Below are positions 6,170 to 42,363 of a DNA stretch of 42,911 bases, piece by piece; positions within the stretch are counted from its first letter, which is position 1; every line of letters starts with the position of its first letter. The stretch spans positions 1 to 42,911 of the forward strand of contig JALHNZ010000021.1 of NCBI GenBank assembly GCA_022843265.1. The letters run 5' to 3'. Under the pieces are notes generated by a model. That model worked only from the letters and a program-made list of their open reading frames with translations. It did not search any database and had not been told where the DNA came from. This stretch comes from Gemmatimonadaceae bacterium (lineage in GTDB: Bacteria > Gemmatimonadota > Gemmatimonadetes > Gemmatimonadales > Gemmatimonadaceae). The translations under genes and the position numbers were made by a program.

Positions 6170-6205
6170 AAGCGGTCAAATATATGCCCGACCGGCCGTG
6201 CTGTG

Positions 6206-6973: not shown

Positions 6974-6992
6974 CAGGCGCGACGACTCGCTC

Positions 6993-8039: not shown

Positions 8040-8117
8040 TATTCCACCCGTGTTGATGGTAAGGTGCCACGCCCTGGCAAAGCGGAATCTACCGCGCACC
8101 AGAACTCGGCCAAGACC

Positions 8118-8168
8118 CGAACAAAGTACGAAAGAGTGTGCTCGTGGACAACCCCCAAGGTTATCCAC
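8118..8168 (-). promoter_or_regulatory. Putative recA promoter with a 25-bp imperfect inverted repeat
   Basis: On the minus strand GTGGATAACC (8168-8159) and GGTTGTCCAC (8153-8144) form an inverted repeat with one mismatch and a 5-base spacer. TTGTCC within the second arm can serve as a -35 element, with TACTTT 17 bases downstream as a weak -10, about 85 bases before the recA start. The first arm contains the perfect DnaA-box 9-mer TTATCCACA on the plus strand (8161-8169). Overlap of a dyad with a promoter suggests an operator, possibly for an SOS repressor. It does not match the E. coli or Gram-positive LexA boxes. It could also be a terminator hairpin for yraN, whose stop is 19 bases upstream. 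Confidence 0.4.
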
Positions 8169-8187
8169 AATATTCGGTTATTCTGAC

Positions 8188-8559
8188 CTACCCGGACCGC
8201 AAGGAGAACGCGTCGGGCACATGACGTACCCGAACATTATCCGAATCTAACAGCACACCCACCACATCAAAGCGGTAAATGGTGCCTGGCGTACCGTGCC
8301 GGTCAACCCAGACCTGGGCCGACTTGGAGAGCTCGCGCTGCTTCCGTGCATGCACAGCTTCTACCGGCGAACCAAAACACTCGCCGCGACGTGCTTTCAC
8401 TTCCACGAACGCAATCGTGTGTTCGCGTTGCATGATCAAGTCGACGTCCCGATGTCCGCTACGATAGCGATGCGCCAAGAGCTGCCATCCATCGCGCAGC
8501 ATCCAGCGCGCCGCAATGCGCTCCCCAAGGAGCCCGAGTGCCTGCCGTGCTTTTGTCAT
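8188..8559 (-). CDS. yraN: YraN/UPF0102 family nuclease-fold protein
   Basis: The protein has 123 residues, the usual size for UPF0102 (YraN). The family has a restriction-endonuclease-like fold but no firmly established role. Recognised features are the N-terminal GERIAARWMLRDGWQLLAHRYRS region, the GHRDVDLI segment with the acidic residue, and FVEVKAR, which supplies the E-x-K of the nuclease-like core. The YRFDVVGV segment near the C-terminus is also typical. The start is ATG 8559. It is the first gene on the minus strand here, divergent from the penicillin-acylase gene and upstream of recA by about 150 bases. A DNA-processing role is only inferred from fold. Confidence 0.88.
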   Translation of the reverse strand: MTKARQALGLLGERIAARWMLRDGWQLLAHRYRSGHRDVDLIMQREHTIAFVEVKARRGECFGSPVEAVHARKQRELSKSAQVWVDRHGTPGTIYRFDVVGVLLDSDNVRVRHVPDAFSLRSG

Positions 8560-8746
8560 GGCCCGATCCTAACAGCATCTTGTGCTGATGCTCGCACCAT
8601 TCGATCGCACCACGGATCACAAGCCCGCAGGCGACGTGATCAGCGCGCGCGCATTGCCGCGCCGAGTGACGTACGCCACGTTTGTCAGCAGTTTGGCGAG
8701 CCTATGTCGGCGGCTTGCTTCCCTCCTCCATCTCGAACGCAACTCC
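8560..8746. other. Divergent intergenic region between yraN and the penicillin-acylase gene
   Basis: This 187-base spacer must hold promoters in both directions. I see a short inverted repeat AGCATC/GATGCT (8574-8579 and 8587-8592), but no convincing -35/-10 pair and no clear Shine-Dalgarno before ATG 8747. The downstream frame is open from 8582, so part of this region would be coding if an earlier start is used. Confidence 0.4.
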
Positions 8747-11242
8747 ATGGCCCGATCGCGTGTCGGTACGGTCTCTGCGCTTGTAGTGCTTGGCGTCGTT
8801 GGATACGTAGGCGCCCGCCCCGTTGGTCCCCTGCCTCCGCTCGGCGCACTGCTCGATCCCGCGAACGGACTGTTCGCCGCAGTGCAAACGGCGGAACTTC
8901 CGAGCACAGCCAGCGCTACGGTTCCCGGCGTCATTGCGCCGGTGAACGTGACGTATGACGACCGCGGCGTTCCCCACATCTTTGCGTCCAACTCGCGCGA
9001 CGCGTATCAGGCGCTCGGTTATGTGGTCGCGCGCGATCGACTGTTTCAGATCGAGCTGCAAACGCGCGCCGGCGGGGGCACGTTGACCGAGCTGGTTGGC
9101 GACCGCGCGTTGCCACTCGACCAGGCGACGCGAGCCCTCGGCATGCCCCGCGCCGCGGAACAACGCATTGCGCAAGCAGACACAACAACGGCCTCGTGGC
9201 AAATGATGCGCGCCTACGCGGACGGTATCAACGCGTGGATCGCGCAACTCTCGCGCCGCGATCTGCCACTCGAGTACAAGTTGCTCGGCCGAGAGCCTCG
9301 TCTCTTCAGCGCGCTGGATGTGATGCACCTGCTGAACCGCATGGGCTACACGCTTGCATCGTCCGAAGATGAACTGCGCCACGTGCGCGCGGCGGCTCGT
9401 GTGGGGCGCGCCGCAGCCGATGCGCTGTTTCCGGTGCACGCGCCAATCGTTGAGCCGATTCAACCCAACGGGCAGGTCACGCCGCGAGTGGACGCCGTGG
9501 CGCTCGCAGCCCCCGGAGCGCCCGACTCCCTCGCACTCGCGCTCGTGCGGCAGCTCGGCAATGTGGACACACGTGTCGCACTCGGTTTGCCTGCAAGAAC
9601 GCCCGATGCCGTCGGGAGCAACAACTGGGCGGTGTCGCCATCTCGATCGGCCAGCGGTCATGCGCTGCTGGCGGGCGACCCGCACCTTGAGCTCACCATG
9701 CCGTCCATCTGGTACGAGGCGCACCTCGTCGTGGCTGATTCCCTCGATGTGTACGGCGTCACGATTCCCGGACTGCCCGGCATTGTGATCGGCTTCAATC
9801 GCGATGTCGCCTGGACGTTTACAAACGTTGGTGCAGACGTCATGGATTTCTATCTCGAAACCGTCGACGAGCCGAACAATCCCACACGTTATCAGCTCGA
9901 TGGTGAATGGCAGCCGCTCGAGCGTCGCGTGGAGCGCTATCTGAATGGCGACGGTGCGCTGATTCGTGAAGACACGCTGCGCTACACACACCGTGGACCG
10001 CTGCGCCGCGTGAACGAACGCTGGATTTCGCATCGATGGACGGTGCTCGAGGGTCCCGCGCGCGAGCTCGAAGCGTTCGACCGGGCGGCGCGCGCCACCA
10101 CGGCACAAGCATTGCTCGACGAGCTCGCGCAGTGGTTCCGCGTGCCTGCGCAAAACATGTTGGTGGCGGATCGCAGCGGAACGATCGGCATTCGTTCAAC
10201 CGGTCGTTATCCCATACGTCCTGACACTGGCCGAGGCGATGTGCTGCGCGACGGCAGTAGCCGACGCAGCGACTGGATTGGCGACTGGAGTGTGGCGGAG
10301 TATCCGCAATCGTTTTCACCGGCGCAGGGATTCCTCGCGTCGGCCAATCAGGAACCACTCGATCCACGCGCGCAGCCGCGTTATCTCGGTTCAGACTGGG
10401 AACGACCATGGCGCGCGATTCGCATTAACGAACTGCTGCGTGCCAACAGTAAGGTCACGCCTGATGACATGCGCGCCTATCAGACGGAACCACTGAGCGC
10501 GCGCGCCGATGCATTCGTACCGGTGTTCGTGCAAGTCGCGCGTGACGGTCCGCCGCGACCATCGCTCGTACGTGCGGGGCAACTGTTGGCCGCCTGGGAT
10601 CGTCGATATACGACCGACAATACGGCGGCGCTGCTCTTCGAAGCTGCCATGTCGGCGCTGTCAAATGAGTTATACGATGAGTTGCTCGACACGGAAGGCG
10701 ACGAGGCGACTGCGGGGCCGAGACCATCCGACATGATGACGGCCATGCTGCTGAATGAACCCACAAGCATGTGGTGGGACCTGCGTCGCACCACGGAAGT
10801 TGAAACGCGCGACGCGGTCATGGCCGACGCGCTGGAAAGCGCGTACGACGAGTTGGTGGAGCAGTTCGGCGCGCCAGAATCGGAAGCGTGGCGCTGGTCA
10901 AATCATCGCACGGCCAACATCAATCATCTGCTGCGAATGCCCACGATGAGCCGACTCAATATTCCCATGCAAGGTGGCAGTGGCACGCTGAATCCATCCA
11001 CTGGGGCCGGCACGCATGGTGCCAGCTGGCGCATGGTGGTTGAACTCGGGCCAGAGATCAGTGCGCAAGCGATTTATCCTGGCGGTCAATCAGGGCATCC
11101 GGCGAGCGAGCGCTACGATGATCGACTCGCCGCGTGGACCGCGGGACGACTCGACACACTCCGGGTACCGCGCACCGCGAACGAGCTCACCGGCGCACGT
11201 GTGCGCTCGACGCTTCGACTTTCGCCTGCGGGGACGCCGTGA
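8747..11242 (+). CDS. Penicillin acylase family Ntn hydrolase (S45)
   Basis: This is a large amidase precursor of about 831 residues, as expected for the S45 family (penicillin G acylase, AHL acylase and relatives). These precursors self-cleave into alpha and beta chains and hydrolyse amide-linked acyl groups outside the cytoplasm. An N-terminal hydrophobic segment after MARSRVG acts as signal or anchor. The alpha region shows VTYDDRGVPHIFA and ALGYVVARDRLFQIE. The nucleophile is Ser291 in GSNNWAVSP, which would become the beta-chain N-terminus, followed by LLAGDPHLELTMPSIWYEAHL. PIQGGSGTLN-like text (IPMQGGSGTLNPSTG) lies near the C-terminus. ATG 8747 is chosen because the hydrophobic leader directly follows it. 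The frame is open back to GTG 8582. The stop overlaps the next gene's ATG (TGATG), so translation is probably coupled. The substrate (penicillin, N-acyl homoserine lactone or another amide) cannot be told. Confidence 0.92.
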   Translation: MARSRVGTVSALVVLGVVGYVGARPVGPLPPLGALLDPANGLFAAVQTAELPSTASATVPGVIAPVNVTYDDRGVPHIFASNSRDAYQALGYVVARDRLFQIELQTRAGGGTLTELVGDRALPLDQATRALGMPRAAEQRIAQADTTTASWQMMRAYADGINAWIAQLSRRDLPLEYKLLGREPRLFSALDVMHLLNRMGYTLASSEDELRHVRAAARVGRAAADALFPVHAPIVEPIQPNGQVTPRVDAVALAAPGAPDSLALALVRQLGNVDTRVALGLPARTPDAVGSNNWAVSPSRSASGHALLAGDPHLELTMPSIWYEAHLVVADSLDVYGVTIPGLPGIVIGFNRDVAWTFTNVGADVMDFYLETVDEPNNPTRYQLDGEWQPLERRVERYLNGDGALIREDTLRYTHRGPLRRVNERWISHRWTVLEGPARELEAFDRAARATTAQALLDELAQWFRVPAQNMLVADRSGTIGIRSTGRYPIRPDTGRGDVLRDGSSRRSDWIGDWSVAEYPQSFSPAQGFLASANQEPLDPRAQPRYLGSDWERPWRAIRINELLRANSKVTPDDMRAYQTEPLSARADAFVPVFVQVARDGPPRPSLVRAGQLLAAWDRRYTTDNTAALLFEAAMSALSNELYDELLDTEGDEATAGPRPSDMMTAMLLNEPTSMWWDLRRTTEVETRDAVMADALESAYDELVEQFGAPESEAWRWSNHRTANINHLLRMPTMSRLNIPMQGGSGTLNPSTGAGTHGASWRMVVELGPEISAQAIYPGGQSGHPASERYDDRLAAWTAGRLDTLRVPRTANELTGARVRSTLRLSPAGTP

Positions 11243-28373: not shown

Positions 28374-28652
28374 CTAGAACAGGGAGCGTGCGATGAGGTA
28401 CGCGATGAGGACGCCCACCAAGCTCAGCAACGAAACATCGAGCGCAACTGGGCCGAGCGCAAACTTCAATATAATCAGATCAATGGGCAACGGTCCAACC
28501 GAAGGTTGAACCCCCGCCGTCAAAAACTCCTTCACAGCCCCGGCTGGCAGGAACCGGCGCGCGAGCTGCGCCATCAACCCACCGGCAACAAACCCGGAGC
28601 TGAGCACCAGCAGATGAAACACCGGACGGTGTTTCGAGGGTCCTTTCGCCAT
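28374..28652 (-). CDS. Small membrane protein, DUF4321-like
   Basis: The protein has 92 residues with two membrane segments, at about 12-30 ([19 protein letters not shown]) and about 66-90 ([23 protein letters not shown]). Between them lies a short extracytoplasmic loop containing [25 protein letters not shown]. The pattern of FLTxGVxPSxGPxxxDL followed by a membrane segment matches my recollection of DUF4321, a family of unknown function. The ATG at 28652 shares a base with the stop of the polyprenyl synthase gene (TGATG), and GTG 28655 is an alternative start. tatA follows 8 bases later. Its role is unknown. Position suggests an inner-membrane function. Confidence 0.8.
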
Positions 28653-29656
28653 CACCAGCGCCTGTCCACGGCGTAACCAATCGCATCAAGCAACACGGCA
28701 CGCGCTGGACTGTCAGGTACGCCAGACAGCGCCTCTTCGGATTCCTGCGCGAACTGATCCGCTCGCCGGCGCGCGTATTCAAGCCCGCCCGACTCCCGCA
28801 CCATATTGATGACCTCGTTCACCGAATCCTCGTCGGGCTGCGGCGTGGCAAACAGCGCTTCGACGCGCCCACGTTCCGCCGGAGACATCTGACGAAGGGC
28901 CGCGATCAGCGGCAGCGTCACCTTGTGCTCCCGCAAATCGAGCCCGCTCGGCTTGCCGGTCATCTCTGACGTCTCGGTGTAGTCGAGCAAATCATCGGCG
29001 ACTTGAAATGCCATACCGAGCCGCTCACCGTAGCGTGCAAGGGCATCGTGATGCGCTTCAGCACCACACAGTGCACCCACAGAACACGCCGCCACAAACA
29101 GCGCCGCCGTTTTCGATTTGATCAGCCGCTCGTAATCGACTTCCGTAAACGCGAGCGCATCGAACGCCGCCAGCTGACGCATTTCTCCGAGCGTCATGGC
29201 GTCTGATGCATTCGAGACCGCGCGCATGATTTCAATGTCACCGAGCTTGACTAACTCACGCATGACGCGCGAGTAGAGAAAATCGCCCATGATCACGGAG
29301 ATCTGATGACTGAACAGCGCGTTCACCGTTGGCATACCGCGTCGCAGCACGGAATGATCAACTGCGTCATCGTGAATGAGCGTGGCGAGATGCAACAGCT
29401 CGACAACGGCAGCACAGGTGATCGCACGCGGTTGCATACGATCTTCCACAGCTGCTGAAAGAAGTGTGAGTGTGGGACGCAGAAGTTTTCCCTTCATGCT
29501 CAGCAGATGGTCGCCCACCTCCTGCACCAAGGGTACGTCGGCAGTGACGATGCGCCGGATTTCTCCAGGCACCGCCTCGAGCTCCCCGCGAACGGGGGCT
29601 TGGATGTCGCGAAGAGCAGCGGCCAGTGCTGACGGGGTGCGCGCGGATACAGTCAT
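28652..29656 (-). CDS. All-trans polyprenyl diphosphate synthase
   Basis: The protein has 334 residues of the class I trans-prenyltransferase family and extends an allylic diphosphate with isopentenyl units to make the side chain of menaquinone or ubiquinone. The first aspartate-rich motif is DDAVD (96-100) in LATLIHDDAVDH, and the second is DDLLD (221-225) in FQVADDLLDY. KGKLLRPTL binds diphosphate. The residues four and five places before the first motif are small (T92, A91) and not aromatic, which fits a long-chain product such as octaprenyl or heptaprenyl; exact length is not shown. The start is ATG 29656, overlapping the stop of the long TPR gene by four bases (ATGA). The next gene overlaps its stop. 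Confidence 0.93.
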   Translation of the reverse strand: MTVSARTPSALAAALRDIQAPVRGELEAVPGEIRRIVTADVPLVQEVGDHLLSMKGKLLRPTLTLLSAAVEDRMQPRAITCAAVVELLHLATLIHDDAVDHSVLRRGMPTVNALFSHQISVIMGDFLYSRVMRELVKLGDIEIMRAVSNASDAMTLGEMRQLAAFDALAFTEVDYERLIKSKTAALFVAACSVGALCGAEAHHDALARYGERLGMAFQVADDLLDYTETSEMTGKPSGLDLREHKVTLPLIAALRQMSPAERGRVEALFATPQPDEDSVNEVINMVRESGGLEYARRRADQFAQESEEALSGVPDSPARAVLLDAIGYAVDRRW

Positions 29657-32600
29657 CGCGCGCCCCGATCAAGGGCGGCCAGGCGGTCGGCGACGTCTCG
29701 GAAGTTTATGTCGGTTGCGTACACGCGTTGAAAATAGCTCCGTGCCTCGTCTCGGCGCTGCAGGGCCTCACACGCATATCCCAACAAGTAGAGCACACCT
29801 ACCCGTTGATCGTCGTTCAGCCCGGGTTCATGCAACGCCCGAGATAGAACGGTTACGGCCACCGGAAGGCTCCCTTTTTCGATAAAACACTGGCCGAGCG
29901 CTTCGTACGCGGGCAGACGATGCGTTGGACTGCGCAACGCGCGCTGGAATTCCGCAACGGCATCGTCGAGCAAACCCATTTCCTTGTAGGCCACGCCGAG
30001 GTCGTAATGGCTTTCATAATCTTCGTCGCCAAGGCTCCGCGCGACGCCCTCGCGAAAGTTTTGTAGCAGTCGATCAAAATCGGCGTCTTCGTCACCCGTT
30101 ACCGTGGGCTCCTTCACGCGCATGCGTGTGTCCCGAGTGGCATCCCCATCGGAGAGCCAGTCGGTCAGGCTGACGTAGCCGTCATCCTGCTGCTTGACGG
30201 GGGGATTAGGCGACGGCGGCGGCGGTGCGGCGTCACCGAGTGCGGCCCGCGCGCGATCGTCCCATGGATCAAGTTCGAGCACGCGCGCGTAGACCGGCTC
30301 GGCGCGCTGCGCGTGGCCCGTGCGAACGAGCGCGTCGGCCAAATCGAGATAGCTCTCGCGCAGACGCTCGGGGTCGGCCAGGCGCGCGGCCAACTCAACG
30401 CGCTTGTGATGATATGTGACCACATCTGGCGAGACGCGTACCATCTCATCACTGACTTTGGCGGCGTCGCTGAGCGCGCCCTCAACCTCGAGGCCGAGTA
30501 CCGTCGCAGCGAGCTCATCCATACCAGCTTCGAGCTGTCCGGCTTCGAGCAGTGCTTCGGCGAGGCGACGGCGACGCGCCCAATCACCAGGGTGGCGTTC
30601 GACCTCTTCGCGCAGCCGAGTGCAGCGATCGAGCGCGAGGTTGATCGAGGTGGCTGGTGTGCGCGGTGTAAGAATCGCGTCCAGGTCGACGAGGTCGTCG
30701 TCGAATGTTGCGTCGGGCGCCGTGTGTACCGCCGCATCCATTGGCGTGTCCACCGACGCATTTGCCGACGCGTCCAGCGACATATCCGGCGACGCAACCC
30801 CCGTCACATCCCCCGTCACATCCCCCGTCACATCCCCCGTCACATCCAGCGACGCATACGGGGTGTCATCCGGGGAGGCAACCAGCGGCTCATCAACCGT
30901 CTCGGCAAGCATGGCCTCAGGCGTCGCCACCGACACGGCTTCGCTGCGCTCCACGTCCTGTTCCGCAGCGTCGTCTAGCTCGAAATCCACCAGCTCGGTC
31001 ACGGGCGCAGCTGCCGCCGGTGGTGTGAGCAAGGCATCGGGATACACAATCGGCGGGAGCTCGCCCGGCAGAATGAAGTCGTGCGGATTGAGCCGCTCGC
31101 GAGGCGCATTCAAGAGCACGGGCGGGGCATGCTCGAGATCCGGACGATCGTCCTCGCTCAGCATGTCGTCCATGGGCTCGACGTCGATATACTCGAGCGT
31201 GCCCGCCGGCGTGTCGCGCTCAACGTCGAGGAACTCCAACGGCGCCACCGGCGTCTCAAGGCGCGCGACCAGCGGCGTCACCGGTGTGTCGAACCCCGTC
31301 AGCGGCTCGCTGTCCGGCTCCAGGCCCTCGACGCTATCGATGGTTCCCAAGGGCTCGAACTCATCCGGTTCGCCCAGCTCGCCCAGCTCCCCGATTGACT
31401 CGACGGCGTCGAGATCGAACGCCGCGAACGCATCAGCAGGCTCGTTCTCCTCAGGGGGTTCGATACGCTGCGATTCGTCGAACGCAATAAATGGCAGCTC
31501 TACCGGCTCTGTCGGCGTTAGCGTTGGCGTTGGCTCGATGAACGCCACGTCTTCGCTGGACGGGAGTTCTTCCACCGACTCACCCGTCTCGTCTTGAGCG
31601 ATCCAGCTAATATCTGACGTGAGATCTGACGTGAGATCTGACGTGAGATCATCCGACGTAACATCCTCAAAAACAACGCTTTCGAGCATCTCACTCGGCG
31701 CGCCTTCTGCCGGAATGTCACGCGAATCCTCGGTCACCTCCGCAACATCCGACTCCTGAGAGAACGTCGCGAGATCGGCCAGCATCGCCGCGTCGTCGGC
31801 CGCCATTTCCTCGTCGTACGTCTCAAGTGACAACAGGTCGACGTCGAATCCGCCGCCCGCTGAGACAGGATCCGGCGCCGACTCCAGCTCGCCCGCTGTG
31901 TCGAATGCTGCCGCGTGCTCCGCTGATTCAGACAGCAGCAGTTCGCCATGGGCACCTTCGGCGTGTTCTGCCTCCAGAAGCACGTCGTCAGACACGAGCC
32001 CGTCGAGCGCCTCCGACTCGACAGCAACCGCGTCGACCGGCGCAAAACCCAACGCGTCGGTCAGTCCACTCGGCGCCACAAGTGAGTCGGTGGCACCGAG
32101 ATCGCCTGCATCTGGCAACAGCGACGGCACGTCCAGGTCGGCCGCAGCAACCTCGGTGTGCGTGCTCTCGAGCCCATCAAGATGCCAATCGTCGTCGGCC
32201 GCCTCTCCGAGGTCGGTCGGATCGAAAATCAGCAGATCGTCGAGCGAGTTCGTCCGGGCGGGCTTTTCTTGAGGCGCCGGAGTCGCAGGCGCAACGAACG
32301 GTTCAAACGCGGGCTCGCCAAGCGGCGGAGTCAGAGACGCTTTCGAATCGTAGTCGATGTCGAGAAACACCAGGCTGGCGGCCGGCTTGGACTCAGCCGC
32401 CGCCGACGATTCTGCCGCAGTCGGCAACTCGATGCCAACGTGCACCGCGTGCTCTTCCACGAGGCGACGCACCTCCTCCAGCTCGGGCATAAGGCCAGCC
32501 ACTTCGGCGAGCGAGCGCATCGCTTCGTCGGTTCGGCCTTCCTGCCGCATGCGGGTCGCATACTCAAGGAAGTTCCGCGTGGCATCACCGCGCATGCCCT

Positions 32601-32928
32601 TCCGCGCGCAGACACGTCCAAGCGTGAGATACACCGCGGCGCGGCCTGGCGCGTGGCGCAGGATTTTGTTGCACAGCGCGATCGCGTTGTTGAACAACCC
32701 AACGGCTGAGTAGTGCTCGACGGCTCGCTCGTACGAGGCGACGGCCTCAGGCACGCGGCCCAATCGCAGCGCGAGGTCGCCCACTTTGTTGAGCACCGTG
32801 ACATCGACTTCGGCTCCTTCGGCATCGCCCACTTCGATGGCGCGCACGTAGCTCGCAATGGCCTTGTCGAACTGCTTCTGCAACTCGAACTCAGCCGCCT
32901 TTTTCTTGTGCTTTGCGGCGTTCGACAT
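29653..32928 (-). CDS. Large TPR protein with acidic, repeat-bearing middle
   Basis: The protein has 1091 residues and its function is not recognised. The N-terminal about 160 residues are TPR-like (KKKAAEFELQKQFDKAIASYVRAIEVG, AVASYERAVEHYSAVGLFNNAIALCNKIL, YLTLGRVCARKG). A very acidic middle of about 600 residues contains SDLT and DVTG tetrapeptide repeats. The C-terminal about 320 residues form more TPRs, including DFDRLLQNFREGVARSLGDEDYESHYDLGVAYKEMGLLDDAVAEFQRAL, a text I associate with TPR proteins of Myxococcota and related groups. No signal peptide is present, so it is probably cytoplasmic. The start is ATG 32928. The gene leads the polyprenyl synthase-DUF4321-tatA run with a 4-base overlap. 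The layout echoes the 820-residue TPR protein at 23495-25957. A scaffolding role is inferred only from TPRs. Confidence 0.85.
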   Translation of the reverse strand: MSNAAKHKKKAAEFELQKQFDKAIASYVRAIEVGDAEGAEVDVTVLNKVGDLALRLGRVPEAVASYERAVEHYSAVGLFNNAIALCNKILRHAPGRAAVYLTLGRVCARKGMRGDATRNFLEYATRMRQEGRTDEAMRSLAEVAGLMPELEEVRRLVEEHAVHVGIELPTAAESSAAAESKPAASLVFLDIDYDSKASLTPPLGEPAFEPFVAPATPAPQEKPARTNSLDDLLIFDPTDLGEAADDDWHLDGLESTHTEVAAADLDVPSLLPDAGDLGATDSLVAPSGLTDALGFAPVDAVAVESEALDGLVSDDVLLEAEHAEGAHGELLLSESAEHAAAFDTAGELESAPDPVSAGGGFDVDLLSLETYDEEMAADDAAMLADLATFSQESDVAEVTEDSRDIPAEGAPSEMLESVVFEDVTSDDLTSDLTSDLTSDISWIAQDETGESVEELPSSEDVAFIEPTPTLTPTEPVELPFIAFDESQRIEPPEENEPADAFAAFDLDAVESIGELGELGEPDEFEPLGTIDSVEGLEPDSEPLTGFDTPVTPLVARLETPVAPLEFLDVERDTPAGTLEYIDVEPMDDMLSEDDRPDLEHAPPVLLNAPRERLNPHDFILPGELPPIVYPDALLTPPAAAAPVTELVDFELDDAAEQDVERSEAVSVATPEAMLAETVDEPLVASPDDTPYASLDVTGDVTGDVTGDVTGVASPDMSLDASANASVDTPMDAAVHTAPDATFDDDLVDLDAILTPRTPATSINLALDRCTRLREEVERHPGDWARRRRLAEALLEAGQLEAGMDELAATVLGLEVEGALSDAAKVSDEMVRVSPDVVTYHHKRVELAARLADPERLRESYLDLADALVRTGHAQRAEPVYARVLELDPWDDRARAALGDAAPPPPSPNPPVKQQDDGYVSLTDWLSDGDATRDTRMRVKEPTVTGDEDADFDRLLQNFREGVARSLGDEDYESHYDLGVAYKEMGLLDDAVAEFQRALRSPTHRLPAYEALGQCFIEKGSLPVAVTVLSRALHEPGLNDDQRVGVLYLLGYACEALQRRDEARSYFQRVYATDINFRDVADRLAALDRGAR
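30799..30846. repeat. 12-bp tandem repeat, four perfect copies, inside the large TPR gene
   Basis: Four identical copies of CCCCGTCACATC, in frame, encoding DVTG four times on the minus strand. Identity at silent positions points to recent expansion. Confidence 0.92.
31616..31651. repeat. 12-bp tandem repeat, three copies, inside the large TPR gene
   Basis: GACGTGAGATCT occurs three times in a row, with the last base of the third copy changed. It is in frame and encodes SDLT repeats on the minus strand. Confidence 0.88.
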
Positions 32929-33031: not shown

Positions 33032-34288
33032 TCATGACGAGTGACAAGCGCGGCCGCGACTCCATGCTACCCGACAAAGACGCTCGCCGAACCAGTAAGG
33101 CAACTCGCGATAATCGTCGGCAGAATGCACGGCGATGTCGGCCGAAAACCCCTCCGCCAGTTGACCGGTCTGTGCGGCAAGTCCAAGCGCCGCGGCACCG
33201 TTCACCGTGGCCGCGACCCATGCTTCCGCGGCCGACATGCGGAGCTCACTCACCGCCAGCGTCAGTAACATCGGAAAGCTTGTCAGCGGAGACGTGCCCG
33301 GATTGAAGTCGGTGGCAAGCGCAACCGCAGCGCCGGCTTCAATCAGGCGACGAGCCGGCGCTTGTCGGCCGGTGCCAAGGAACAACATCGTCGAGGGCAA
33401 CAACGTGGCCACCGTTCGACTGGCGGCGAGTGCGGCAATACCGCTATCAGAAATGGCCGCGAGATGGTCGGCCGACGTGACGCCGAGTTCCGCGCCGAGC
33501 ACGGCGGCGCCACCATCGTGCAGTTCGTCGGCGTGCATCTTGAGCGCCAGTCCTGACGCGCGTGCACCCAACAAGATGCGGCGCGATTCTTCCGTGGTAA
33601 ACACACCGGGTTCCGCAAAAATATCTGCAAATACAGCGAGCCCCTCACGCGCCACGGCGGGATGCAGCTCCTCTTCCAATGCGACGATCCAGGCCAGTCG
33701 ACCGTCTGGTGCATCACGATACTCAAGCGGGACCTCGTGTGCTCCGAGACATGTGGGCACGATGCGCATCGACACTGTGTCCTGCAGCTGACGCACCACG
33801 CGCAGGGTACGCAGCTCATCGTGTACTGTGAGCCCATACCCGGACTTGATTTCGATTGTTGTCACGCCGCCTGCTGCAAGTCGCGCAATGCGAGGCACGG
33901 CGAGCGCATAGAGTGCGTCGTTGGAGGTCGCGCGCAAATCGCGCACCGACGAATGGATGCCACCGCCACGACGCGCGATTTCGAGATACGGCACGCCAGT
34001 CGCGCGCAACTCATGCTCGGCAAATCGCGCCGCACCAAACACGGCGTGCGTGTGTGAGTCCACGAATCCCGGCGCCAACAACCCGCGATCACAGTCCACT
34101 TCATGTGCATTCGGGAACGCGGCGCGAAGGGCAGCGTCCGTGTCGACTTTCACAATCATTTCGCCCTGCACTGCCACGCCGCAGCCCGTGCGAATGCCCG
34201 CGTCGTTCATGGCGGCACCGCGCCGCGCATCGGCCGCTCCCGCGCACGTCACCGTTTGCGCCGCGTTCACGAACAGGGTCGTGTTCAC
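33032..34288 (-). CDS. hutI: Imidazolonepropionase
   Basis: The protein has 418 residues of the amidohydrolase superfamily. It opens the ring of 4-imidazolone-5-propionate to N-formimino-L-glutamate, the third step of histidine degradation. The first metal pair is H79-x-H81 in VDSHTHAVFG. Other conserved blocks are RRGGGIHSSVRDLRATS, EIKSGYGLT, LGAHEVPLEYR, MHADELHDGGAA, TSADHL and ATDFNPGTSP. The start is GTG 34288. It lies 16 bases after the radical SAM gene and is the last hut gene of the run. The next minus-strand gene starts about 100 bases later. No enzyme for formiminoglutamate (HutG or HutF) follows in the window. Confidence 0.96.
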   Translation of the reverse strand: MNTTLFVNAAQTVTCAGAADARRGAAMNDAGIRTGCGVAVQGEMIVKVDTDAALRAAFPNAHEVDCDRGLLAPGFVDSHTHAVFGAARFAEHELRATGVPYLEIARRGGGIHSSVRDLRATSNDALYALAVPRIARLAAGGVTTIEIKSGYGLTVHDELRTLRVVRQLQDTVSMRIVPTCLGAHEVPLEYRDAPDGRLAWIVALEEELHPAVAREGLAVFADIFAEPGVFTTEESRRILLGARASGLALKMHADELHDGGAAVLGAELGVTSADHLAAISDSGIAALAASRTVATLLPSTMLFLGTGRQAPARRLIEAGAAVALATDFNPGTSPLTSFPMLLTLAVSELRMSAAEAWVAATVNGAAALGLAAQTGQLAEGFSADIAVHSADDYRELPYWFGERLCRVAWSRGRACHSS

Positions 34289-34304: not shown

Positions 34305-35291
34305 TCACGTGATTTTCGGCGACGCCATCACATCAAGCACACGGGATAGCCGCATTGGTGCCTGCGCCTCGCCGCGACACGCGTAAAAACAATCGTCGCA
34401 CTTGATCGCCGCGTATGGTGTCCACTGCTTCCAGTCGACATCGGGCGGAAAATCCGGGCACCGTCGCACCTTGCCCTGCGGATCCACGTGCACGGTCGTG
34501 GTGCCGCTCGGACAGGGCGCCGTCATCAGCCCCTTCACCCAGCGGGGAATCTCCGACAGGTAATGATCGGAGTTCGTAATCACGCCGCGATTCTTGCGCT
34601 TGTACTCCAGCAGTTGATCAATCACCGACTCCAGCGCGCGTACATGTTGATCACGCAGCAGGTGATTTTCATTGCCATTCTTGGCGTCGGTGTACACGGA
34701 AAAATTGACGCCAGCTCCCATGCTCGCCGCTTTGTGCACCAGCGGCAACATCTGATCGAGGTTGTCGTGCTTGAGCACCGTGTTGAAACGCACACTGCCA
34801 ATGCCGGCCGCTTTCATGCGCGGCACCGTATCCATGATCTTCGCGGTCAAACCCGGAATGCCGCGCGCATCATCATGGCGCCCATCGAGGTAATCGAGCG
34901 AAATATTGAACTGGTCGAGTCCCGCATCCCACAGCGATTTCGCCCGATCCAGTGTGAGCATGCCGCCGTGCGTGATCATGGCCAGGTACGAAAACGTCGT
35001 GGCGTCACGCACTGCCGTCACGATGTCTTCGAGGTCACGTCGAAGCGTGGGCTCGCCACCCGTGAAGGTGATCATCATGGGATTGAAGCGACGCGCAATA
35101 TCCGTGAACTCTTTCAGCTCATCCGCTTTGGCCGACGCCGGCGTCTTCCAATAATCGCAGAACCCGCATCGCGCGTTGCAGCGCATGGTGACTTCGAGAT
35201 TGAGCAAAACGGGACGCTGACGCACGCGTAGCCAGGCGTACTTGCCCATGAAGAGCGGCACGTGCCACGGCTTGTAGCGCGAACTTAGCAT
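34305..35291 (-). CDS. Radical SAM protein with SPASM/twitch-like C-terminal cysteines, inside the hut operon
   Basis: The protein has 328 residues. The radical SAM cluster site is C38-x3-C42-x2-C45 in MRCNARCGFCDYW, and TGGEP (77-81) contributes to SAM binding. FNISLDYLDG is the typical beta-strand six region. The C-terminal part has five more cysteines, C260, C278, C298, C301 and C305 (APCPSG, RRCPDF, KCDDCFYACRGE), arranged like a SPASM or twitch auxiliary-cluster domain. The N-terminus (YKPWHVPLFMGKYAWLRVRQRPVLLNLEVT) has no signal or membrane segment. I cannot assign a reaction: peptide maturases, mycofactocin/PQQ-type enzymes and cofactor enzymes share this form. The gene is 10 bases after hutU and 16 bases before hutI, so it must be in the same transcript. 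No small precursor-peptide gene was seen next to it. Confidence 0.9.
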   Translation of the reverse strand: MLSSRYKPWHVPLFMGKYAWLRVRQRPVLLNLEVTMRCNARCGFCDYWKTPASAKADELKEFTDIARRFNPMMITFTGGEPTLRRDLEDIVTAVRDATTFSYLAMITHGGMLTLDRAKSLWDAGLDQFNISLDYLDGRHDDARGIPGLTAKIMDTVPRMKAAGIGSVRFNTVLKHDNLDQMLPLVHKAASMGAGVNFSVYTDAKNGNENHLLRDQHVRALESVIDQLLEYKRKNRGVITNSDHYLSEIPRWVKGLMTAPCPSGTTTVHVDPQGKVRRCPDFPPDVDWKQWTPYAAIKCDDCFYACRGEAQAPMRLSRVLDVMASPKIT

Positions 35292-35301
35292 GGAGGTCCG
35301 T

Positions 35302-36975
35302 TCACTTGATCAGGGGAAGGTGCAGCCCCGAACGGCGGGCCGTATCGCGCGCCGTTTCGTATCCCGCCTCAGCGTGTCTCGCCACACCGATGCCGGGATC
35401 GTTCGTGAGTACGCGTTCAATGCGTCGCGCCGCCTCCTCCGTTCCATCTGCAACGATCACCTGCCCCGCGTGCAGCGAGTTGCCAATGCCAACACCACCG
35501 CCGTGGTGAAAGGACACCCACGACGCGCCACTCGCCACGTTCAGCATCGCATTCAGGATCGCCCAATCGGCAATCGCATCGGATCCGTCTTTCATGGCTT
35601 CCGTTTCGCGAAACGGCGAGGCCACGCTCCCGGTGTCGAGATGATCACGACCAATCACGATCGGCGCTGACACCTCGCCGCTGGCAACAAGCTGGTTAAT
35701 GGCCAACCCAAACTGTGCACGAGCACCCTGTCCAAGCCAGCAGATGCGCGCCGGAAGTCCCTGGAACTGAATGCGCTCACGGGCAAGGGTAATCCAGCGA
35801 GCAAGCTGCATGTCATGCGGGAACATGTCGAGTAGCAGCGCATCGGTGCGGTAGATGTCCGCGGGATCACCAGACAGCGCCACCCATCGAAACGGTCCTT
35901 TGCCTTCGCAAAACAACGGCCGCACGTATTCCGGCACGAAGCCCGGGATGCGGAATGCATCATCGAGACCCGCGTCGAACGCCACCGTGCGAATGTTGTT
36001 GCCGTAGTCGAACGCAACGGCGCCGCGGTCCTGCATGGTTCGCATGGCACGCACGTGCGCAACCACAGAATCGCGGGCCAGTGCGACGTACTCGTCAGGA
36101 TCCCGGGCGCGCAAGTCGGCGGCGTCATCGAGCGAATACCCACGCGGTACGTAGCCCACGAGCATATCGTGCGCGCTCGTTTGATCCGTCACCACATCCG
36201 GCGTGATACCACGCGCAACAAGGGCGGGAAGCACGTCAGCCGCGTTACCGAGCAAGCCGATCGATAGACCAACGCCCTGCGCGCGCGCTTCGCTGAGCTG
36301 CGCGAGTGCATCATCGAGATCAGTGGCCATGCGGTCGCAGTAACCAGTCTCGAGCCGCTTCTGAATGCGCGATGCGTCTACCTCAACCGCGAGCACTGCC
36401 GCGCCGTGCATCGTGGCTGCGAGCGGCTGCGCGCCACCCATGCCGCCGAGTCCGGCCGTGACCACAAGACGACCAGCGAGCGTGCCACCAAAGTGCCGTG
36501 TGGCAACGGCACCAAACGTCTCGTAGGTGCCCTGCACGATGCCTTGCGAGCCAATGTAGATCCACGAGCCTGCCGTCATCTGGCCGTACATCGTGAGTCC
36601 CAACTTTTCGAGTCGACGGAACTCATCCCAGTTGGCCCAGCGTCCAACCAGATTGCCATTCGCGATCAGTACGCGCGGCGCATCGGTGTGCGTGCGAAAG
36701 ACAGCCACCGGCTTGCCGCTTTGCACCAGCATGGTTTCATCGTCCGCCAGCGTGTGCAGCGTGTGCACAATCGCGTCAAAACATTCCCAGTCACGCGCCG
36801 CCTTTCCGGTGCCACCATACACCACCAGATCATCCGGACGCTCGGCCACATCCGGATCGAGATTGTTCATGAGCATGCGCAGCGCTGCTTCCTGCAACCA
36901 GCCGCGGCAGCTCAGTTGATTCCCGCGCGCTGCTCGAACGGGCCTTGCACCCACCGGCATCGACATCGTTGTCAT
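35302..36975 (-). CDS. hutU: Urocanate hydratase
   Basis: The protein has 557 residues, the normal size. It hydrates urocanate to 4-imidazolone-5-propionate using tightly bound NAD+ as electrophile. The start region [29 protein letters not shown] and the [19 protein letters not shown] block are diagnostic. The NAD-binding glycine-rich stretch is [52 protein letters not shown] and [20 protein letters not shown] follow in family order. It is cytosolic. ATG 36975 overlaps the hutH stop by four bases (ATGA), so the two are translationally coupled. The radical SAM gene follows 10 bases after its stop. Confidence 0.98.
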
Positions 36976-38504
36976 ACGGACCCTCCCAGTAGCGCGTCTG
37001 GATCAAACATTCCGTCGGCGAGCGCGGACGCAAGGGCCAGCAGATCTGGTGACGGTGGACGGTCACCTGTGCGGGGCGGCACGAGCGCGCGAACCCGAGC
37101 GTGGGCGGCTTCAAGTGCGGGTGAGCTGGTGAGCGGTCGGCGACAGTCGATCGCATCGGCCGCACAGAGTAGCTCCACCGCCAACACGTGACGCAGTCCC
37201 GCCACGCTTTGCCTCAGTTTGAGTGCCGCGCCCATGGCCATTGGCACCACGTCTTCCTTGTTGCCGTCGGTCGGAATGGAATCCACGCTCGCTGGTGACG
37301 CGAGGCGTTTCATATCGCTCGTGATCGCCGCGGCCGTAACCTGCGCCATCATCAGCCCGGACTCGAGGCCAGGCTTCTGTGCAAGAAACGGCGGCAACCC
37401 TTGATTGAAATCCGGATGCACTAGTCGATCCGTTCTGCGCTCGCTAATGACCGCAAGATTGGCGCACACGACGGCGAGAAAATCGGCCGCCATACCAACG
37501 GCCTGCCCGTGGAAGTTACCGCCGCTCAACAGCTCGCCCGATTCCATCACCAATGGATTATCAGTGGCCGCGTTCAGCTCGCGCTCAATGACGCCCATGG
37601 TGAACTCCAGCGCGTCGAACGCGGGACCATGCACCTGCGGCATGCAACGCAGTGCGTACGCGTCCTGCACGCGCGGATCACCGGCGCGATGCGATTCGCG
37701 CAGCGCGCTTCCCGCCAACAGCGCGCGAAGCAGCGCCGCGGATCGCAGCTGACCACGCTGTCCGCGCGCGATCTGGATGCGCTCGTCGAACGCATCGGGT
37801 GTACCGAGCAGCGCATCGAGACTCATGGCGCCAATCACATGCGCGGCTCGGCACAGTTGCTGCAACTCCAGCGCGGCAATCGCTGTCACGGCGGTGTGCG
37901 CCTGCGTGCCATTAATCAGCGCAAGCCCCTCTTTCGCCTGCAACTCAAGTGGCGCCAAGCCCGCCCGCGCAAGAATCGTGGCGCCATCGGCTTCGTCGCC
38001 ATGCAACCGTGCGCGTCCTTCACCAATGAGGACCAACGCCAAATGCGCAAGCGGCGCAAGATCACCACTGGCACCCACACTGCCCTGTTCCGGCACAAGG
38101 GGCACCACACCCGCTTGCAACATGGCGAGCAGCAATTCGACGACTTCAGTTCGCGCGCCCGCGTATCCGGAGGCCAACACGTTTGCGCGCAACAACATCA
38201 TGGCGCGCACTTCTCGCTCCGGCAACGACGCGCCAACGCCGGCGGCGTGGCTTCGTACGAGATTGCGCTGCAGATTCGCCAGATCGCTTAACGGAATGGC
38301 GATCTCTGACAGCTTGCCGAAACCGGTGTTCAATCCGTACACCGCTGCACCGCTCGCCACCGCCCGGTCCACCACGGCACGCGTGCGCTGCATGCGCTCG
38401 CGCGCTGCTGCCTGAAGCACGACGGGCCGCTGTCCGCGAGAAACGGCGTCAAGCACGTCGGCGGTTAGCGTTTGCCCATCCACCTCATAGGCGGCCGTCG
38501 TCAT
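36972..38504 (-). CDS. hutH: Histidine ammonia-lyase
   Basis: The protein has 510 residues, typical of HutH. It removes ammonia from L-histidine to give trans-urocanate. The MIO electrophile forms from A145-S146-G147 in [14 protein letters not shown], and YGLNTGFG (56-63) carries the catalytic Tyr. [32 protein letters not shown] and [20 protein letters not shown] are also family marks, as is [18 protein letters not shown]. The ATG at 38504 shares one base with the lptD stop (TGATG), so histidine degradation is coupled to an outer-membrane assembly gene. The stop overlaps hutU. No HutC repressor or histidine transporter is in the window. Confidence 0.98.
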
Positions 38505-41500
38505 CAGCGCACCGTGCGCCGATCGTAGTTGAACTTGATTTCAGGTGACGCCTTGAGCGCGATAAAGAAGTTGAACGCAAAGTTTCCGTTGGGCACGCGG
38601 GTGAATGAGAACACGGCGTTCCAATCGTGCATCTCGCGCTGTAATCCAAGCTGCAGCGATCCGAAATCACGACGCACCATATCGTACTGGGCGCTCATGG
38701 AGCCACTCCAATTCTGCGTTAACCCGAACGACAGATTGCCGCTGAGATTTTCGCTCGGTGGCTGAATGTAGAGCGGACCGCCGGCCGTGACCTGTCCCTC
38801 GGGCTGAAATCCAACGGGCGGTGAGTTCGTCGCATTCGCCAGACAGTCCTGATACGCGAACGAACCTTCAGGAATACCGCGACAGGCGAGCGCCGGATCG
38901 TATTCAATCTGCGTGCCACCAATAGGCGGACGTTGACGATTCGCGTTGTACGTGAGCGAGAGCTGCCAGCCCGCACCAGATGATGGCAACGACACCGGCG
39001 CTCCGCGCGCGCCTGAACCCGCGGCGCGCAGTCCACCTCCGCCGAACTGCGAGAACTCACTGCGGCGTGAGGTGGTGAGTGAGTCTGCGGCGTCCGGTGA
39101 TTCAATGGCACCACGACGACCGAACAAACGGCCAATGAGTGCTACCAGCCCCGACTGTCCGTCGAGCGAGAAGTTCACACCGAGCGTATTTCGGAACGGT
39201 TTGAACAGCGCGGTATCACTGAGCGGATCACCCTGGAAGAGTTCGTAGCCCATCTGAAAATCGAGATTGGGCAGCAGGTCCGTACGCGCTGAAATGGTAA
39301 AGTTCTGCTCGACCAATCCCGACGACGCTGTGTCAGCACGAATGAAGTCGTACGTAAGCGACGAGAAGTTCAGCGCCAACAAACGAACCTTGCGCCCCTC
39401 AGCCGCGGGACCACGCGGAATTAGCGGCGCGTTGGGATCATCACCAGCGCCCGGCGCTGCAGCCGAGTCTGCGGCCACCTCGCTGCTATCGGTGCCCGCA
39501 CGCGCGGCGACTTCGTCGGCCGACGGCGCGCGCATTTTTGCTTCGAACGTGGTCGCAAACGCCAACGAAATCGCGTTGCGCGGCAGCGAGCCGAGGTACC
39601 CCTGACGCGTACGCCCGGTCGCTTCAAGGAATGCGTCGCTCACGTCGGCCCTCGGCGACACGCTGTACGAAATCTGCGGGCTTACCGAATGACGAATCGC
39701 TTCAACCGGACCGAGTCCGGGAAACAATCCGTATAACACGGGCGCTGCGCTCACTCCGTACTGCGCGCGCTTGCCCTGCTGTACATACCGGCCGCGGCTC
39801 AACTCGGAACGCACGATGAATCCCGCCGACGGATCGGTGTTCACGAACTGCACACTCGGCGACACGTTCCACGAACCCTGCAGGAAGCGCGGCAAGTTGA
39901 AGGACGTATTCCAGTCCACGTTCGTGAAGAATCGCTGCGCAAAGATGCGGGTGAAGACCTTGGACGTATCGTTGACATCACGAACAATCTTTTGTTCGGG
40001 ATAGTCGTCAAAGCGTTCCGTGATGCTGACCGTGTTGTTGACCTGAAAGTCGAAAATCTTGAACGGCGATTCGAACCCAAAGTTGGTATTGCTGCGCGAG
40101 GCGGGGACGCGCGTGCTGTCCAGGCCACCGAGCAGATTCGGGCGGTAGATGTTTCCGAACTGAATTCCCTGGTCGATGTTGTCCGTGCGGGCCTGATTAA
40201 ACCGCAGACTTGGCGTCCACTCAAAACGACCAAACGCGAGTGTCCCGGTGGTCAGGTTGAAGTTCGGCAAATCCGTATCGGTCTGCAGACGTCCCGGATA
40301 CTGCTTGCGCGTGCCACCAACGCTCAGGTTCAGTGGCCCGACTTTTGTCTGGTAGTTCAACTGCGATACAATGGTGGCCAGCGACGCCGTTGGATTGAAC
40401 GTGGTCTGACGCTGCACCGTGGTGCTCTGCACCCAGTTGATGTTGGCGCTGACTCGCGTGGACTTGCTGAAGCTCTGGTTATGGCGCCACGACACCGACG
40501 TGTTGGTCTGCCCCCCGTTTTGCCCCAGATACGAGACGGCGGCCGTACCATCGATAAAACGCGACAGCCACTTGTATCGAAACTCGGTGTTACCACGCAA
40601 CCAGCCGGCGTCAAAACCGCTGCCGCTGCCGCCCGAGCGCCAGTCCATGGAGACTTCAGCGTCGGCGTAGTCATTGATGGCAAAGAACCATCCAACATTT
40701 TCTACGGTGCGCTGATAGTTCGCACTGTTGCGGAACAACTCGGCGACACCAAACCTGGGCGTGAGCAGTCCGCTGCGCCGACCGGAACGAACGTCCTGAA
40801 AAAAGAACGGCAGCCAAAACACCGGGACTTCGCCGATGTAGAGCACACCTGGTCGTGCGACCACCACGTTCTCAGACACGAACTTGATGTCTTTGGCCGT
40901 GAAGTGAAAGTGAGGCTCGGAGAGGTCGCAGTACGTGAAGTCAGCATCGTGGAAAAACAGACGTCGACCGCCCGTGAGCGTGGTGTCACCGAGGATGGTA
41001 CCTGACTCGGCGGTAATAAACAGTCGCTGACCGGACACGACGGATGTCGAGAAGGCGCCGGTGGTGCCCTCCTGTGTTTCCAGATCGTAGCGAATAGATC
41101 CGCGTGCGACAAAATCGTCCGCATCATCGCGCGATGGATCGCGCAGGATCACCGTGTCTCCAGTGGCCACCACAAGTTTGGTGGAGTCGTCGTACACGAT
41201 CGTATCGCCAACGAGAATCGTCTCTCCGCGACGCACCGCCGACGGTTTGCCTCGCATGGTGAGCAACTTGGTGATGGCATCGAACGTGACCTTGTCACCC
41301 TGATACTGCACCGTGCTGTAGCCCGATCTGGCGAGCAACTCTTTCATGATCGAGTCTGGCTCGGCCCATTCCACGAGCAGCTTGTCGCGATTCAGCGGTG
41401 CGGGCTCTGCACCGCCGCGCGTTGCGGGCGGCTGCGCTGGAACACGCGGGATGGGGACCTGCGCCCCTGCCTCAGATGAAGTCACCAAGGGGGCGAGCAA

Positions 41501-41581
41501 CAGTACAGCCAGAACGAAACGAGAAACGTGACTGGCGAGCGCGCGAGCGATGGTGTCGGTGCAACGTGGCAACGCGATCAC
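38504..41581 (-). CDS. lptD: LPS-assembly outer-membrane protein LptD
   Basis: The protein has 1025 residues, longer than E. coli LptD (784). It inserts LPS into the outer leaflet. A signal segment (about 20-40, FVLAVLLLAPLVTSSEAGAQ) leads to a Pro-rich stretch and an OstA/LptA-like beta-jellyroll (about 85-260, with YQGDKVTFDAITKLLTMRG, VGDTIVYDDSTKLVVATGDT and FTYCDLSEPHFHFTAKDI). IGEVPVFWLPFFFQDVRSGRRSGLLTPRFG is the family's transition into the barrel. The barrel occupies the rest and ends in KASPEIKFNYDRRTVR. A low-complexity insert lies near 675-700. Two cysteines (ALACRGIPEGSFAYQDC) may form a loop disulfide, unlike E. coli's pattern. GTG 41581 overlaps the tatC stop (GTGA). LptE is not visible. 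Confidence 0.93.
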   Translation of the reverse strand: MIALPRCTDTIARALASHVSRFVLAVLLLAPLVTSSEAGAQVPIPRVPAQPPATRGGAEPAPLNRDKLLVEWAEPDSIMKELLARSGYSTVQYQGDKVTFDAITKLLTMRGKPSAVRRGETILVGDTIVYDDSTKLVVATGDTVILRDPSRDDADDFVARGSIRYDLETQEGTTGAFSTSVVSGQRLFITAESGTILGDTTLTGGRRLFFHDADFTYCDLSEPHFHFTAKDIKFVSENVVVARPGVLYIGEVPVFWLPFFFQDVRSGRRSGLLTPRFGVAELFRNSANYQRTVENVGWFFAINDYADAEVSMDWRSGGSGSGFDAGWLRGNTEFRYKWLSRFIDGTAAVSYLGQNGGQTNTSVSWRHNQSFSKSTRVSANINWVQSTTVQRQTTFNPTASLATIVSQLNYQTKVGPLNLSVGGTRKQYPGRLQTDTDLPNFNLTTGTLAFGRFEWTPSLRFNQARTDNIDQGIQFGNIYRPNLLGGLDSTRVPASRSNTNFGFESPFKIFDFQVNNTVSITERFDDYPEQKIVRDVNDTSKVFTRIFAQRFFTNVDWNTSFNLPRFLQGSWNVSPSVQFVNTDPSAGFIVRSELSRGRYVQQGKRAQYGVSAAPVLYGLFPGLGPVEAIRHSVSPQISYSVSPRADVSDAFLEATGRTRQGYLGSLPRNAISLAFATTFEAKMRAPSADEVAARAGTDSSEVAADSAAAPGAGDDPNAPLIPRGPAAEGRKVRLLALNFSSLTYDFIRADTASSGLVEQNFTISARTDLLPNLDFQMGYELFQGDPLSDTALFKPFRNTLGVNFSLDGQSGLVALIGRLFGRRGAIESPDAADSLTTSRRSEFSQFGGGGLRAAGSGARGAPVSLPSSGAGWQLSLTYNANRQRPPIGGTQIEYDPALACRGIPEGSFAYQDCLANATNSPPVGFQPEGQVTAGGPLYIQPPSENLSGNLSFGLTQNWSGSMSAQYDMVRRDFGSLQLGLQREMHDWNAVFSFTRVPNGNFAFNFFIALKASPEIKFNYDRRTVR

Positions 41582-42363
41582 GCGATCGCCTCGCTCCCGA
41601 TTTGCTGCGAGCGCAGTTTCTTCCGGTACACAACGCGCGACAGTACGATTCCACCTTCATAGAGAAAGTAGAGCGGAATCGTCATCATGATCAGCGCGGT
41701 GATCGCGTCGCCAGGGGTGATAATCGCAGACAACGCCATGCAGCCAACGAGCGCGTGTCGCCGCCACTTTGCCAGCATGATTGGCGTGACCAGACCGAAC
41801 GCGGTGAGTGCGAGCATCACAATGGGCAGCTCAAAGGCCGCGCCGAATGCAAGGCACATCCCGAACACGAACGCGAAGTAGCGCCGCACTTCCAGCATGG
41901 GCGTGAACGCCTGCGTCTGGAACCCCACCAGAAACTTGAGCGTAACGGGCAGCACCACGTAAAACGCCAGCGCGACACCGGCCACGAACAGCAGTGTTGC
42001 GCCGAACATTACCGGGAGTACCACCCGTTTTTCCGTTTGGTACAACGCCGGCGACATGAACGCCCAGATCTGATAGCATACGACGGGCAGCGCGATGAGG
42101 AATCCAAGCCCGAACGACGCGGACAGCACCACGTTGAACGGATCAGTTGGACTCGTATACACCAGTTGTTCGGTAATGACTGCCTGCAACGGGCGCTGCA
42201 AATAGTTCAGCAAGTCGATCGACTTGGTGGACAACAATACGAACCCCAGCACAAAGCCACCGCCAAGTGCGAGCGCGACTTTAAAGAGACGCCAACGCAG
42301 TTCCTCGAGGTGATCGAGGAACGGCATCTCATCATTCTGAGCTTTCGGTGTGACAGTAGACAC
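41578..42363 (-). CDS. tatC: Sec-independent protein translocase TatC
   Basis: The protein has 261 residues with six membrane helices. It is the core receptor of the Tat system, recognising twin-arginine signal peptides. The N-terminal cytoplasmic motif MPFLDHLEELRWRLFK contains the conserved Glu for signal-peptide binding. FNVVLSASFGLGFLIALPVVCYQIWAFMSPALYQTEKR is the loop and helix region around the first periplasmic cap. FGMCLAFGAAFELPIVMLAL carries the conserved Glu of helix four, and ITPGDAITALIMMTIPLYFLYE ends the protein. The start is GTG 42363; ATG 42327 at MPFLDHLEE is an alternative that leaves the motif intact. It follows the CpoB-like gene by about 30 bases, and lptD overlaps its stop by four bases. 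Confidence 0.96.
   Translation of the reverse strand: MSTVTPKAQNDEMPFLDHLEELRWRLFKVALALGGGFVLGFVLLSTKSIDLLNYLQRPLQAVITEQLVYTSPTDPFNVVLSASFGLGFLIALPVVCYQIWAFMSPALYQTEKRVVLPVMFGATLLFVAGVALAFYVVLPVTLKFLVGFQTQAFTPMLEVRRYFAFVFGMCLAFGAAFELPIVMLALTAFGLVTPIMLAKWRRHALVGCMALSAIITPGDAITALIMMTIPLYFLYEGGIVLSRVVYRKKLRSQQIGSEAIA

Follow-up and report, generated by a model that had tools for sequence, protein, structure and literature searches.

A near-universal Twitch-type radical SAM gene within the histidine-degradation operon of Gemmatimonadaceae

Gene order at the locus

The window, that is, the whole analysed stretch of 42,911 nucleotides of Gemmatimonadaceae bacterium DNA (GenBank assembly GCA_022843265.1, contig JALHNZ010000021.1), carries on its minus strand four genes in the order hutH, hutU, radical SAM gene and hutI. 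The hut genes encode histidine ammonia-lyase (hutH, 36972..38504; TIGR01225, 627 bits against a cut-off of 539), urocanate hydratase (hutU, 35302..36975; TIGR01228, 949 bits against 375) and imidazolonepropionase (hutI, 33032..34288; TIGR01224, 396 bits against 298), all three above the NCBIfam equivalog cut-offs. The radical SAM gene (34305..35291) encodes a protein of 328 amino acids. The open reading frame coordinates agree with the order and tight packing described in the first-pass annotation: hutU and hutH overlap by 4 bases, hutU is separated from the radical SAM gene by 10 bases, and the latter from hutI by 16 bases. On the upstream side, an lptD-like outer-membrane gene (38504..41581; PF19838) overlaps hutH by one base. 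From the spacing, we infer that the radical SAM gene is co-transcribed with the hut genes.

These genes belong to a conserved block on the minus strand that starts with a tatC-like gene (41578..42363), syntenic in outgroups and in the family, and continues after the hut and radical SAM genes with a gene for a TPR-like protein (29653..32928). The block ends with a polyprenyl-diphosphate-synthase-like gene (PPS, 28652..29656), which also served as a tree marker; the latter two genes are likewise placed by synteny, and the names of all three come from reading the sequence. Elsewhere in the window, the recA, recX and alanyl-tRNA synthetase genes, identified with Pfam, lie together on the minus strand (3395-8168), which is an ordinary arrangement.

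Motifs and predicted structure of the radical SAM protein

The window protein passes the Pfam radical SAM model PF04055 with 77.5 bits against a gathering score of 29.5. Its only cysteines are C38, C42, C45, C260, C278, C298, C301 and C305, all eight of which are invariant in 80 of 80 family sequences, so the C-x3-C-x2-C site and the five C-terminal cysteines noted in the first-pass annotation both stand. The first three (C38-x3-C42-x2-C45, 35157..35180, minus strand) open the subfamily signature CNARCGFCDYWK. The 80 family sequences also keep GGEP, H108, H139-D140, R143, N170, N177, K204-N205-G206, S241, R306 and E308 without exception. The C-terminal region (34377..34514, minus strand) reads C260-x12-G-x4-C278 ... 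C298-x2-C301-x3-C305-R-G-E, and its five cysteines, together with R306 and E308, are kept in distant relatives too.

A SPASM domain is defined by seven cysteines in the pattern CX9-15GX4C-gap-CX2CX5CX3C-gap-C and binds two auxiliary clusters (PMC6231123), whereas the Twitch domain is a truncated SPASM domain with CX9-15GX4C plus a downstream cysteine and a single auxiliary cluster (PMC6231123, PMC9012708). The window protein has five rather than seven C-terminal cysteines, arranged as CX12GX4C...CX2CX3C, and gives no match to the SPASM model PF13186. The Twitch pattern, CX12GX4C followed by CX2C(X3C), is present in all 80 family sequences, and the fold matches those of BtrN, SkfB and MoaA. By its sequence, the C-terminus is a Twitch-type domain with one predicted auxiliary Fe-S cluster and not a full SPASM domain. 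The earlier label "SPASM-like" is better replaced by "Twitch-like".

An AlphaFold2 model of the protein (pLDDT 86.4) has its nearest PDB folds in BlsE (Z 21.6), SkfB (20.2), SuiB (19.0), PqqE (18.7) and MoaA (18.6), and also resembles DesII; a common fold gives no proof of function. The top match, the cytosylglucuronate decarboxylase BlsE (PDB 7vob; 275 residues, 3.2 A), is likewise a single compact radical SAM enzyme and acts on a small molecule. However, it shares only 20% identity with the window protein, which scores 46 bits against a cut-off of 400 with the NCBIfam BlsE model, and no blasticidin-type cluster was seen near the window gene. BtrN, SkfB and MoaA share with it the CX9-15GX4C motif, a downstream cysteine, one auxiliary cluster and a matching fold, but identities in the structural alignments are 17-22%, and the CX2CX3CRGE tail and CDYWK signature of the window protein are distinct from them among the proteins compared here.

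Comparison with radical SAM families, which the first-pass annotation had proposed as a check, matched 62 NCBIfam models, and none of the best 25 (MoaA, PqqE, HpnH, BlsE, PTO1314 and others) scored above its curated cut-off; the named families among these 25 were therefore rejected. The top score, 93 bits for the PTO1314 family radical SAM protein (TIGR03961), is far under the cut-off of 306, and this model is a hypothetical equivalog that gives the window protein no function. The MoaA model reaches 91 bits against a cut-off of 284. For a viperin-like defence role, the prokaryotic viperin (pVip) models gave 47.5 bits, a similarity confined to the radical SAM core and scored against models listed with no cut-off. 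A search of plasmids gave distant matches only, of PqqE, MoaA and MftC type. The protein belongs to an unnamed Twitch radical SAM subfamily that no curated family claims among the best 25 NCBIfam models compared.

The presence of SkfB, SuiB and PqqE among the top structural matches could point to a maturase of ribosomal peptides (RiPPs) whose precursor is encoded elsewhere. No RRE-like N-terminal domain was seen in the protein, and no small precursor open reading frame was recognised beside the gene, in agreement with the first-pass annotation as far as the sequence was read. Near-universal, single-copy vertical inheritance is also unlike that of a RiPP cluster, and such a role is highly improbable. 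The missing RRE domain and precursor, together with conserved polar residues, suggest that the substrate may be a small molecule and not a peptide.

Distribution in the family and linkage with hut genes

Among 395 genomes sampled from the phylum, 140 belong to the family of the window, Gemmatimonadaceae (f1), and 131 of these carry an orthologue at 58-86% identity; the open reading frame is thus not a chance one. The gene is absent from G102; in G031 and G258 a contig ends where it would lie, and G362 is not judgeable. Within the family, the gene is single-copy apart from G281, where it is split, and G177, which is likely contaminated. The extra copies of G177 were rejected as true duplicates: they lie on short contigs (C45 and C46; L178 and L179) with the hutH-radical SAM-TPR order of g23 and probably stem from binning contamination.

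In 110 of 130 relatives, hutU lies within 700 bp of the radical SAM gene, with a median gap of 23 bp; it is found elsewhere in 17 and was not found in three. Three of the 17 (G171, G175 and G248) have the radical SAM gene near a contig end, where linkage is not judgeable; two of the three were read, and both still have hutI next to the gene. As for the three without hutU, the contigs of G376 and G338 stop just past the radical SAM gene, and G228, at 88% completeness, was not counted as evidence. The radical SAM gene was never found off its one chromosomal spot in the family, a point against a stand-alone enzyme.

Genes packed this closely in an operon across most of a family are usually assumed to be functionally connected. 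A role in the pathway itself would have the enzyme modify urocanate, imidazolonepropionate or formiminoglutamate, or repair a hut enzyme, acting in trans where the operon has moved. It would fit the fact that most of the 110 relatives with hutU beside the gene have hutI on its other side, and that hutU is present somewhere in 127 of the 130 genomes, the other three being either incomplete or truncated by the end of a contig. However, hutU is also present in 22 of 24 outgroup genomes of the phylum; because it is so common there, its co-occurrence with the radical SAM gene says little.

Origin of the insertion

In the outgroup families f2 and f9, the block reads tatC-lptD-hutH-hutU-hutI-TPR-PPS, with hutU adjoining hutI and the radical SAM gene absent (hutH is without a match in the two f9 loci, and one f2 locus begins at hutH). 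Thus, the hut cluster is the older element, and the radical SAM gene came in later and separated hutU from hutI. Parsimony on a tree of concatenated markers (PPS/tatC/lptD/p26051) assigns the radical SAM gene two changes, one gain and one loss, and the local hutU/hutI pair six changes; some deep nodes of this tree are weak, and the six hut-less clades persist after collapsing nodes below 0.9. The comparison shows, at the level of gene order, a single entry of the radical SAM gene, dating to the ancestor of the window's family, into a hutH-hutU-hutI operon that already existed. The genome G102 (about 100% complete), which is nested within the family, shows lptD-hutH-hutU-hutI-TPR uninterrupted by the radical SAM gene on a single contig, a gene order that marks a secondary loss.

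The first-pass annotation had suggested inspecting hut loci across Gemmatimonadota for the same order. The order is indeed common within the family, hutU adjoining the gene in the 110 relatives counted above, but the hut blocks of the outgroups are without it. A single insertion whose order was kept in most of the family fits the "stable passenger" that the same annotation had listed among its options.

Loss of hut genes and retention of the radical SAM gene

Six lineages have kept the radical SAM gene at this spot although hutU and hutI, in most cases along with hutH, are no longer there. No hut gene remains there in G243 (g1), in G181, G278 and G068 (g4), in G021, G023, G191 and G300 (g5), in G135 and G393 (g19) or in G244 (g28); in the g23 genomes G200 and G357, hutH is the only one of the three hut genes left. 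In the hut-less genomes of g1, g4, g5, g19 and g28, the radical SAM gene immediately follows lptD and is itself followed by TPR-PPS; the gap to lptD is about 34 bp in G243 (L100) and about 3 bp in G023 (L106).

Three loci of such genomes that hold hut genes elsewhere were read, and all are without the radical SAM gene: a divergent hut operon with hutG and a hutU at about 61% in G243 (L114), a relocated hutH-hutU-hutI beside a hutG-like gene just under the cut-off in G023 (L115), and a divergent hutU with hutI in G244 (L116). The formimidoylglutamase gene hutG in L114 scores 274 bits against 229, and FTCD is present in both the L114 and L115 genomes.

Pairs within the hut-less clades g4, g5 and g19 give dN/dS values of 0.03-0.10 (Nei-Gojobori), and hut-linked pairs 0.03-0.18 by the same method; the number of pairs is small and dS is greater than 1 in several of them, which makes these values rough. 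Comparison of G243 (as L041) with two hut-linked g1 relatives yields 0.08-0.09. The ratios indicate that the radical SAM gene is under purifying selection after hut loss in three hut-less clades.

Formiminotransferase (FTCD, PF07837) is encoded elsewhere in eight of eight genomes tested, including that of the window. Since HutH, HutU and HutI are intact and FTCD is present elsewhere in the genome, no hut step is missing, and the filling of a missing step was rejected as a role for the radical SAM protein. The gene does not always travel with hut: it is absent from the outgroup and G102 hut blocks, and it outlasts local hutU and hutI in six lineages. The proposed action on an intermediate or cofactor of the hut pathway therefore finds no support, the pathway being complete without it. 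Nor does a coupling of histidine supply to a separate radical reaction, given that the gene outlives local hutU/hutI loss and that relocated or replaced hut operons leave it behind. A literature search found no relevant paper on radical SAM genes in hut operons. A role in histidine degradation is very unlikely, although nearly all genomes with the gene still have a hutU with which it might act in trans.

The position directly behind lptD once the hut genes are gone might instead suggest work at the outer membrane with lptD, such as modification of an LPS sugar or lipid, and the sugar-modifying enzymes BlsE, DesII and BtrN are among the matching folds. However, lptD has the same neighbours in outgroups that lack the radical SAM gene, and because the whole region is syntenic, adjacency to lptD is expected once the intervening genes drop out. 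This role is unlikely.

Distant relatives and their neighbourhoods

The nearest relatives found outside the family (L151, L152 and L093) come from a GTDB phylum with two sampled genomes, one of which has two copies. The closest of the distant relatives, L093 and L097, share about 31-36% identity with the window protein. Most of L093/L133, L151/L152 and the planctomycete relatives share a CNxxCxxCDYWK-type motif, CxAG...G...C and a CxxCWxxCR tail. In the stretches read they lie away from hut genes, and the neighbours of distant relatives are oxidases and Tes-like or other radical SAM genes. In one planctomycete (L156), the tetraether lipid synthase gene Tes (7760-9361; 577 bits against a cut-off of 450) adjoins a distant radical SAM relative.

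Gemmatimonadota homologues outside the family share only about 25-31% identity in the phylum sample. In the twelve loci read they represent a different subfamily, which was not considered further: NWGG, RGG or similar residues follow the cluster motif, and the CxxCxxxCR tail is missing. In three f2 genomes (L123, L126 and L128), a related radical SAM gene of CTANCWHCNWGG type lies near pntA/pntB-like transhydrogenase genes and a MoaA-type gene, all named from sequence reading.

These neighbourhoods bear on the possibility of a lipid enzyme of the HpnH or Tes kind, making ether or membrane-spanning lipids. The relatives in the two-genome phylum adjoin an FAD-linked oxidase and a GMC oxidoreductase, and, besides the planctomycete relative next to Tes, another planctomycete relative stands beside a TrsS/Tes-like gene that falls under the cut-off. 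However, all of these relatives are distant and their neighbourhoods vary from one to the next, the window gene has no such neighbours, and the scores with the HpnH and Tes models stay far from their cut-offs. A lipid enzyme is accordingly quite unlikely, and the FAD-linked and GMC oxidoreductases and the Tes gene of one planctomycete provide weak leads to a substrate.

Proposed function

The reading that we favour is a stand-alone Twitch radical SAM enzyme, near-universal in the family, that rides in the hut transcript and probably performs its own chemistry apart from histidine breakdown. The window gene would be expressed in an lptD-hut transcript, with chemistry unrelated to that of the operon. 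As in the superfamily at large, C38, C42 and C45 would hold a [4Fe-4S] cluster and, with GGEP, SAM would be bound and reductively cleaved. The resulting 5'-deoxyadenosyl radical would take hydrogen from a substrate predicted to be small, not peptidic and probably polar, and an auxiliary cluster on C260, C278, C298 and C301, with C305 to spare, may accept the returning electron, following the proposal for BtrN.

More tentatively, the enzymatic function could itself be new, an undescribed reaction near the core metabolism of a whole family that is carried out by an unnamed Twitch subfamily, whose gene has been kept at one spot despite repeated loss of its partners. The guilt-by-association reading is corrected by the departure of hutU and hutI from this spot in six lineages in which the radical SAM gene stayed. 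The analysis also singles out a near-universal, uncharacterised radical SAM enzyme of a whole soil-bacterial family that lends itself to a search for its function.
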